This document shows positions 36,280 through 37,826 of a stretch of DNA of 64,000 bases, piece after piece; position 1 is the first letter of the stretch; every line of letters starts with the position of its first letter. The stretch covers positions 1,116,001 through 1,180,000 of the forward strand of contig NZ_RDSM01000002.1 in NCBI RefSeq assembly GCF_004115155.1, in the 5' to 3' direction. Source of the stretch: Granulicella sibirica. GTDB taxonomy: Bacteria; Acidobacteriota; Terriglobia; Terriglobales; Acidobacteriaceae. The translations under genes and the position numbers were made by a program. The notes beneath the pieces were generated by a model. That model ran no database searches and had not been told where the DNA came from. It was given only the letters and a program-made list of their open reading frames with translations.

Positions 36280-36408
36280 CCTCGCTCCTCGAACGTTTTA
36301 GCGGAACTCTGACGTTTCCTCCATCGTTCACATCACATCGTGCCTGCCCGGGATACGCGAGAGCATACTCGCCTCGCGCCAAACCTGCCAACTTTTACCC
36401 CTATCCGA

Positions 36409-36438
36409 TTGACCCTGACTCTCGCGTCGCGGTATCGT
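36409..36438 (+). promoter_or_regulatory. Promoter candidate for the fluoride riboswitch transcript
   Basis: TTGACC (36409-36414), an 18-base spacer and TATCGT (36433-36438). The expected start point near 36445 falls just before the first aptamer base at 36453, which fits a short leader. Confidence 0.55.
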
Positions 36439-36452
36439 TACGACATAATCTT

Positions 36453-36522
36453 GGCGATGGGGTTCGCCGACGACGCTCGCCCTCCAAGGTGAAGCTGATG
36501 ACTCCTACTTACGATAGGAGTC
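36453..36522 (+). promoter_or_regulatory. Fluoride riboswitch (crcB motif) with translational expression platform
   Basis: The aptamer begins GGCGATGGGGTTCGCC (36453-36468) and ends GCTGATGACTCCTAC (36494-36508), the conserved halves of the crcB motif. P1 is GGCG/CGCC. P2 is GCT-CGCC (36475-36481) with GGTG-A-AGC (36488-36495). The pseudoknot pairs loop GGGGT (36459-36463) with ACTCC (36501-36505). The same ACTCC belongs to an 8-bp hairpin, GACTCCTA (36500-36507) with TAGGAGTC (36515-36522), that buries the ribosome site AGGAG of the next gene. Fluoride binding would favour the pseudoknot and free the site, turning translation on. Confidence 0.95.
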
Positions 36523-36524
36523 CC

Positions 36525-37826
36525 GTGCCCGAAACCTCTTCGACCTCGCACAAGTCCGCTACTCACAGCCTCACTATCGGCAGCTCTACAACTTTTGTGC
36601 AGCTTTTGCGGTGGATTCCCCTTGCGACCCTCGCTGGAATCCTCGCTGGCACCGCCTCCGCTCTCCTCCTCGTCTCGCTCAACCTAGCCACCACCCTGCG
36701 CGAGAATCATCCGTGGCTCCTCTATCTCCTCGCGCCAGCGGGGTTGGTCGTTGGCCTCCTGTATCGACACTTCGGAGCCTCCGTCGAGGCAGGCAGCAAT
36801 CTCATCATCGACGAGATCCACAACCCCCAGGCAGTCATTCCCCTCCGCATGACGCCTCTCATCCTCCTTGGGACCTTCATCACCCACCTCTTCGGTGGCT
36901 CCGCTGGCCGTGAAGGCACCGCCATACAAACCGGAGCTTCCCTCGCCGACCAACTCTCCATCCCCCTTCGTCTCGCCCCCGCCAACCGCCGCATCCTCCT
37001 CATGGCCGGAGTCAGTGCAGGCTTCGCCTCCGTCTTCGGAACCCCGCTCGCCGGAGCCGTCTTCGGCCTCGAGGTCCTCGCCATCGGTTCCCTCAGCTAC
37101 GAAGCCCTCTTCCCCTGCTTCATCGCCGCCTTCGCCGGAGACCTCACCACCCGCGCCTGGCACGTCCACCACACTCTCTACCAAGTCTCCTCCGTGCCCG
37201 CCGTCGACGTGCGCGGCATCCTCTCCTCCATCGCCGCCGGAATCGTCTTCGGCCTCATCGCAATGGCCTTCGCCCGAACAACTCACGCCGTCTCCGCCTT
37301 CGCCAAACGCCATATCGCCTACGCGCCTTTACGCCCGTTCGCCGGAGGCATCCTCGTCACTTTGGCCGTGCTCGCCATCGGCACGACCAGGTACATCGGC
37401 CTCGGCATTCCCACCATCGTCGCCTCCTTCCAAACCCGCCTCCCCATCTATGACTTCGCGGCTAAGTTCCTCTTCACCGCCCTCACCCTCGGCACGGGAT
37501 TCAAAGGTGGAGAAGTAACCCCCCTCTTCTTCATCGGCTCAACCCTCGGCAACGCCCTCTCGAACCTCCTCCCGCTTCCTCCATCGCTGCTCGCCGGAAT
37601 GGGCTTCGTAGCTGTCTTCGCCGGAGCCGCCAATACCCCGATAGCCTCCACCCTCATGGCGGTAGAGCTCTTCGGAGCCGAAGCCGGAGCCTACGCCGGC
37701 ATAGCCTGCGTCGTCAGCTACCTCTTTTCGGGCCACTCCGGCATCTACCACGCCCAACGCATCGGCAACTCCAAATACCCGCAGCAGAACCTCCCCGCTG
37801 CTCTCGAAGCAAAACTCCCCGAATAG
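36525..37826 (+). CDS. eriC: ClC-F type fluoride/proton antiporter
   Basis: 433 residues from the GTG at 36525, which sits four bases after AGGAG; an apparent earlier GTG at 36489 lies inside the riboswitch and is rejected. It has ClC architecture with about ten to twelve hydrophobic helices. The canonical GSGIP anion motif is replaced by AGSNLIIDEIH, and the helix-F motif reads GGSAGREGTAIQTG (gating Glu about residue 130, Thr in place of Pro). GFKGGEVTPLFFIG follows. These departures from chloride ClCs match the fluoride-specific ClC-F clade, and the fluoride riboswitch in front confirms the role. It exports F- in exchange for protons. There is no CBS domain at the C-terminus. Confidence 0.92.
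   Translation: MPETSSTSHKSATHSLTIGSSTTFVQLLRWIPLATLAGILAGTASALLLVSLNLATTLRENHPWLLYLLAPAGLVVGLLYRHFGASVEAGSNLIIDEIHNPQAVIPLRMTPLILLGTFITHLFGGSAGREGTAIQTGASLADQLSIPLRLAPANRRILLMAGVSAGFASVFGTPLAGAVFGLEVLAIGSLSYEALFPCFIAAFAGDLTTRAWHVHHTLYQVSSVPAVDVRGILSSIAAGIVFGLIAMAFARTTHAVSAFAKRHIAYAPLRPFAGGILVTLAVLAIGTTRYIGLGIPTIVASFQTRLPIYDFAAKFLFTALTLGTGFKGGEVTPLFFIGSTLGNALSNLLPLPPSLLAGMGFVAVFAGAANTPIASTLMAVELFGAEAGAYAGIACVVSYLFSGHSGIYHAQRIGNSKYPQQNLPAALEAKLPE

Follow-up and report, generated by a model that had tools for sequence, protein, structure and literature searches.

Upstream of a CLC-type antiporter gene in the soil bacterium Granulicella sibirica lies a short leader that raises the question of whether, and at which step, fluoride controls production of the protein. 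The leader was studied within a window of 64,000 nt (the whole stretch of DNA that was analysed). An Rfam scan over this entire window returned two matches above the cut-offs, one tRNA and one fluoride riboswitch aptamer, the latter directly preceding the antiporter gene. The sequence of this leader, together with its relatives across the bacterial family, makes it very probable that the element is a fluoride riboswitch acting on the translation of a CLC-F fluoride/proton antiporter, which it turns on when fluoride is present.

The leader and its shared strand

The first-pass annotation had proposed, from the letters of the DNA, that the two halves of the aptamer correspond to the crcB motif. 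The Rfam covariance model agreed, with the aptamer scoring 37.3 bits against a gathering score of 34, which is the value that decides membership of RF01734 (Table 1). A search of the whole genome found no other match over this cut-off, as the other 10 of 11 matches all fell below it. The pseudoknot can be read from the sequence as five pairs between GGGGT (36459-36463) and ACTCC (36501-36505), the middle pair being a G.U. Given the candidate promoter upstream, transcription would start near the 5' end of the aptamer.

Table 1. Features of the putatively fluoride-responsive leader and its gene (positions in the window)
Feature	Position	Strand	Basis
Probable sigma-70 type promoter, TTGACC (36409-36414), 18-nt spacer, TATCGT (36433-36438)	36409-36438	+	Pattern scan, 9/12 matches
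Fluoride riboswitch aptamer, RF01734	36444-36514	+	37.3 bits, gathering score 34, E 1e-6
Stem P1, GGCG/CGCC, with pseudoknot 5' strand GGGGT (36459-36463) in its loop	36453-36468	+	Sequence and model alignment
Stem P3 (variable), following a joining strand without consensus AACCG	about 36475-36495	+	Model alignment, fold
Sequestering hairpin over AGGAG, 8-bp arms 36500-36507 / 36515-36522	36500-36522	+	Local fold, pairing in relatives
ACTCC, pseudoknot 3' strand and anti-Shine-Dalgarno strand (shared)	36501-36505	+	Model alignment, local fold
Shine-Dalgarno site AGGAG	36516-36520	+	Sequence
CLC-F type fluoride/proton antiporter gene, GTG start, 433 aa	36525-37826	+	Structure match 6d0j, Pfam, motifs

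The same ACTCC strand also takes part in a second structure. That it serves the pseudoknot and also an 8-bp hairpin with AGGAG, as claimed in the first-pass annotation, was confirmed by the sequence and by local folding. The arms GACTCCTA (36500-36507) and TAGGAGTC (36515-36522) form eight pairs plus one more across a bulge, and this hairpin is the minimum-energy fold of 36495-36530 (-10.8 kcal/mol, z -3.28, 0 of 200 shuffles as good). It also appears in the fold of the whole leader (36444-36560), although the z of that fold is only -1.59. AGGAG begins ten bases past ACTCC, is separated by a 4-nt spacer from the GTG at 36525 and falls within the 3' arm, and the hairpin does therefore cover the ribosome site of that start, again as annotated. 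Because both the pseudoknot and the hairpin use ACTCC, the two pairings are mutually exclusive, a point that the annotation had rightly made.

From this arrangement we infer that the aptamer binds fluoride, that binding switches expression on and that control falls on translation rather than transcription. When fluoride is absent, ACTCC would pair with the Shine-Dalgarno site in the hairpin at 36500-36522, and the closed hairpin would block ribosomes from the GTG at 36525. Binding of fluoride and magnesium to the aptamer would keep ACTCC in the pseudoknot with GGGGT; the hairpin would then not form, the Shine-Dalgarno site would be free, and the exporter would be made. The off-state pairing is predicted by folding both to hide the Shine-Dalgarno site and to exclude the aptamer fold.

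Conservation among CLC-F leaders

Across 398 genomes of the host's bacterial family, CLC-F was found in 68 genomes, amounting to 70 genes with that of the window included. Leaders could be read for 69 of the 70 (L093, at a contig end, was left out throughout), L105 was left out of the stem counts, and the alignment comprised 67 distinct leaders. The aptamer is present in all 69 readable leaders, 62 of them recovered with a first pattern and seven carrying small changes in the UGAUGA stretch. In 68 of these 69, a stem of 5 bp or more can form between the Shine-Dalgarno site and the 3' strand of the pseudoknot; the exception, L105, lacks the GGAG pairing and reads GUAGGAA. Stems of at least 7 bp occur in 60 of 68 leaders when the loop is required to hold at least 3 nt, or in 61 of 68 if loops of 2 nt (five leaders) are allowed. 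Both ACTCCT and AGG are invariant in the 67 aligned leaders, with AGGAG complete in 66, while the three counted P1 pairs are kept in 67/67 and pairing is retained in 99.7% of the pseudoknot cells. Upstream of P1, 42 of 68 leaders have an exact TTGAC no more than 65 nt away, 40 of them at 43-47 nt, against 3.8 leaders expected from shuffles; the other 26 lack it.

The complementarity behind the hairpin exceeds chance. In CLC-F leaders, the aptamer 3' strand finds within the following 62 nt a longest Watson-Crick run of 7.2 on average, compared to 4.5 in dinucleotide shuffles. Part of this complementarity comes free, as a Shine-Dalgarno site pairs with CTCC in any case, and the Shine-Dalgarno core was therefore held fixed in a second shuffle. 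Runs of at least 7 are present in 56 of the 68 natural leaders, whereas 200 rounds of shuffling around the fixed core gave 8 such leaders on average and never more than 15. Over the 69 CLC-F leaders, downstream pairing of the 3' strand has a predicted probability of 0.95, which drops to 0.32 when the downstream DNA is shuffled. RNAalifold, run on 67 leaders, chose P1 and the sequestering hairpin unprompted, with a covariation term of only -0.12. Pair counts for the hairpin gave no more covariation than shuffles (136 of 500 reached the observed percentage), and covariation is nearly absent because the letters of the hairpin core hardly vary. One loop-side pair covaries modestly (paired in 48 of 68 leaders, permuted mean 40.6, 6 of 2000 permutations as high), in a count from which relatedness was not removed.

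Beyond the family, 0 of 6 loci of CLC-F relatives had a riboswitch in the DNA surveyed (seven loci, the partial L121 being left out), and none of these loci entered the leader comparison. A set of 30 further loci included 22 from outside the family that were tried, of which 19 were parsed, counting L190 and L193, whose parses look wrong. Among these 19 outside-family leaders, ten have a run of at least 7 between the 3' strand and downstream DNA, and one has a run of at least 8 to the aptamer 5' strand. L192 carries the pseudoknot strand ACGCC and downstream GGCGUC, a compensatory change as read by eye.

The layout also bears on where the protein begins. In 65 of 68 leaders, the window's included, the first in-frame start codon lies 4-7 nt downstream of GGAG, and the start codons are TTG in 37, ATG in 17 and GTG in 14. 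Such TTG or GTG starts, found in 51 of 68 CLC-F leaders, may lower basal expression. The first-pass annotation had moved the start to 36525 from a longer frame beginning inside the aptamer. That frame exists (GTG at 36489, 445 aa) and does start within the aptamer, but among relatives it is ruled out in 37 of 68 leaders by an in-frame stop that lies past the position corresponding to 36489 and before the start; the frame is open in the other 31. The proposed start at 36525 fits the layout of the relatives, whereas the 445-aa model that it was meant to correct is absent among 120 listed proteins (of 7994 matches). The two protein models listed for this contig are of 433 aa (start 36525) and 409 aa (36597, by its length), and the start in real dispute is therefore 36597 rather than 36489. 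For annotation, the riboswitch layout favours 36525 over either.

Alternative readings and a variant joining strand

The off-state might involve more of the mRNA than the hairpin: while the Shine-Dalgarno site captures ACTCC, codons 2-7 might capture the other pseudoknot strand, the 5' one, which would make the early coding sequence part of the switch. The minimum-energy fold of 36444-36560 does pair the 5' strand of the window's aptamer with 36530-36545 (predicted probability 0.99), and a nested fold that takes up both strands is evident in crcB leaders, for example L137 (z -3.77). However, the z of the window's whole-leader fold is weak, as given above, and the 69 CLC-F leaders are about as complementary to the 5' strand as shuffles are, with a mean run of 4.71 compared to 4.67. 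Likewise, the predicted pairing probability of the 5' strand is 0.38 in these leaders against 0.26 when shuffled, and exceeds 0.5 in 25 of 69. Because the CLC-F relatives are at chance level, we keep pairing of the 5' strand with early codons only as an alternative, and consider it unlikely for this leader.

Blocked translation can trigger Rho-dependent termination, and the same switch could in principle act mainly on transcription, with either the hairpin or the resulting untranslated mRNA leading to termination (intrinsic or Rho-dependent) as in Bacillus cereus. The resemblance to that system is real, in that the pseudoknot 3' strand is common to the aptamer and the expression platform in both (PMC11077080, in excerpt), and in transcriptional fluoride riboswitches the terminator hairpin has this strand at its base (same source, in excerpt). 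The competing hairpin of B. cereus is an intrinsic terminator, whereas that of the window encloses a Shine-Dalgarno site; a simple pattern scan of 36280-36650 found no terminator-like site, and no run of T follows the hairpin. In addition, the 3' arm of the hairpin is itself the Shine-Dalgarno site, at the conserved distance from the start codon seen in 65 of 68 leaders. We regard mainly transcriptional control as quite improbable here, and translational control by sequestration of the Shine-Dalgarno site as the preferred reading.

One feature of the aptamer departs from its family. The stretch that joins P1 to P3 lacks the consensus AACCG; these letters are conserved in the RF01734 model but stand outside Rfam's membership test, which is the score. 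The AACCG-less joining strand may explain why the window's aptamer reaches 37.3 bits while the best family matches exceed 60. AACCG is absent in 23 of 69 CLC-F leaders (the window's and 22 others) and in 5 of 93 other leaders among the matches listed. On a tree of 33 CLC-F proteins, the AACCG-less form requires 3 changes compared to 11.2 in shuffles, a clustering of the kind that near-copies raise. Because it is clustered on the protein tree, the AACCG-less aptamer looks like an inherited variant. The G.U at the middle pseudoknot pair is found in 53 of 69 CLC-F leaders as opposed to 6 of 75 crcB leaders, two groups whose ancestry may differ. The low score, the missing AACCG and the G.U could suggest a degenerate or fluoride-insensitive aptamer whose hairpin merely lowers basal translation, but this is very unlikely, since AACCG-less leaders cluster and keep both pseudoknot and hairpin, which points to a variant that still works and not to one in decay, and G.U is the commoner form of that pair in CLC-F leaders.

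Many leaders at crcB in the same family show a different wiring. We compared 93 other leaders of the family among the matches listed, mostly higher-scoring, of which 75 have a downstream crcB match by tblastn; this search misses some crcB genes, as L045, L046 and L155 resemble crcB by eye and are counted as having none. In these 93 listed leaders, downstream DNA is complementary to the aptamer 5' strand over a mean run of 6.9, compared to 4.6 when shuffled, while CLC-F leaders have no such excess. Runs of at least 8 to the 5' strand occur in 38 of the 75 crcB leaders among the matches listed, and 21 of the 75 contain the exact 11-mer GAACTCCATCG, a complement of the aptamer 5' strand that sits between the Shine-Dalgarno site and the GTG start and runs into the latter (e.g., L137, L147, L149, L156, L158, L168 and L171, among others). 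Leaders with GAACTCCATCG would, judging from their complementarity, capture both pseudoknot strands in the off state. The 5' strand has a pairing probability of 0.59 in crcB leaders against 0.08 in shuffles, and in L137 the predicted off-state nests P3 and the Shine-Dalgarno hairpin within a long helix that joins the aptamer 5' strand to the start codon.

Matches to the fluoride riboswitch model (E <= 0.01) number up to 14 per genome among the matches listed, as in G114, G169, G159, G067 and G088. Examined examples from these multi-match genomes precede genes that resemble, by eye, subunits of membrane hydrogenase/formate-hydrogenlyase and a CheB/CheR-type sensor kinase, and further examples precede what look by eye like TolC/membrane-fusion efflux and dynamin-like GTPase genes.

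The antiporter and its place among fluoride switches

The product of the gene was expected from the first-pass annotation to be a ClC-F antiporter, and its best solved relative is indeed the CLC-type fluoride/proton antiporter 6d0j (E 2.8e-61), with chloride CLC proteins ranking behind; it also matches Pfam Voltage_CLC (E 2.3e-73). The CLC-F signature consists of GREGT and GEVTP together with GNNLI or GMGLI (PMC11139923, with a table in PMC5100911, both in excerpt). The window's protein has GREGT and GEVTP, shared with 6d0j, and so do the other 32 full-length proteins examined, making the GREGT/V and GEVTP pair complete in 33 of 33. The annotation had described the anion motifs as altered. This is fair for the first motif, GSNLI (codons 36792-36806), which is one letter off GNNLI/GMGLI; GREGT, on the other hand, is a signature of the CLC-F family and not an alteration. 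The second letter of the first motif is Asn in all 32 other full-length family proteins examined, and the serine occurs in 8 of 120 listed proteins (of 7994 matches), two of which are models of the window's own gene and six are others; it is a genuine minority form. Placed onto the solved CLC-F through alignment with 6d0j, the serine falls where the solved protein has methionine, and where CLC-ec1 and canonical CLC proteins have a conserved, chloride-coordinating serine (PMC12035849, in excerpt).

The protein is a putative fluoride-selective F-/H+ exchanger. No CrcB match was found in the genome, and the one other CLC that the genome encodes shares 26% identity and lacks the fluoride motifs, so that the CLC-F gene appears to be the only recognised fluoride exporter of this genome. 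Many CLC-F relatives are about 590 aa long (P0003, P0010, P0035 and others), some of them named or annotated with an extra PII-like (DUF190) part; the window's 433-aa protein has no Pfam match to such a part.

Members of CLC-F are said to have been described under riboswitch control by Stockbridge in 2012. About 30% of CLC-F genes are stated to be riboswitch-controlled (PMC11139923, in excerpt). Those fluoride riboswitches found in Pseudomonas syringae and Burkholderia pseudomallei belong to the same aptamer family and are presumed to control translation (PMC13273304, in excerpt); the comparison covers the aptamer and the presumed level of control, and the window's aptamer differs in its non-consensus joining strand. 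Covariation models of whole fluoride riboswitches have been built from terminator-type members, and their authors take the widened model to include translational platforms (PMC13273304, in excerpt). Among publications on fluoride riboswitches with Acidobacteri-, anti-Shine-Dalgarno or Granulicella, none was about the window's leader, as judged by titles and the beginnings of abstracts. Fluoride riboswitches that act on translation are already known, as are CLC-F genes under riboswitch control, and the window's leader is therefore a further, well-supported example. Less usual are the non-consensus joining strand, the serine at the selectivity site and, in the same family, the distinct platform with which many crcB leaders engage two strands.

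It is possible, though we offer this only tentatively, that the family uses one aptamer with two translational readouts, namely capture of the 3' strand at CLC-F and capture of both strands at many crcB genes, and that in the window's system, which has both the joining-strand variant and the serine antiporter, sensor and exporter have drifted together in fluoride affinity or selectivity. The leader offers a compact natural case of a fluoride switch whose two states are legible down to the single pair, with some 70 natural variants for comparison, and the family supplies a directly translational set beside the terminator-type members. Between CLC-F and crcB leaders, the wiring of one aptamer to two off-states becomes testable.
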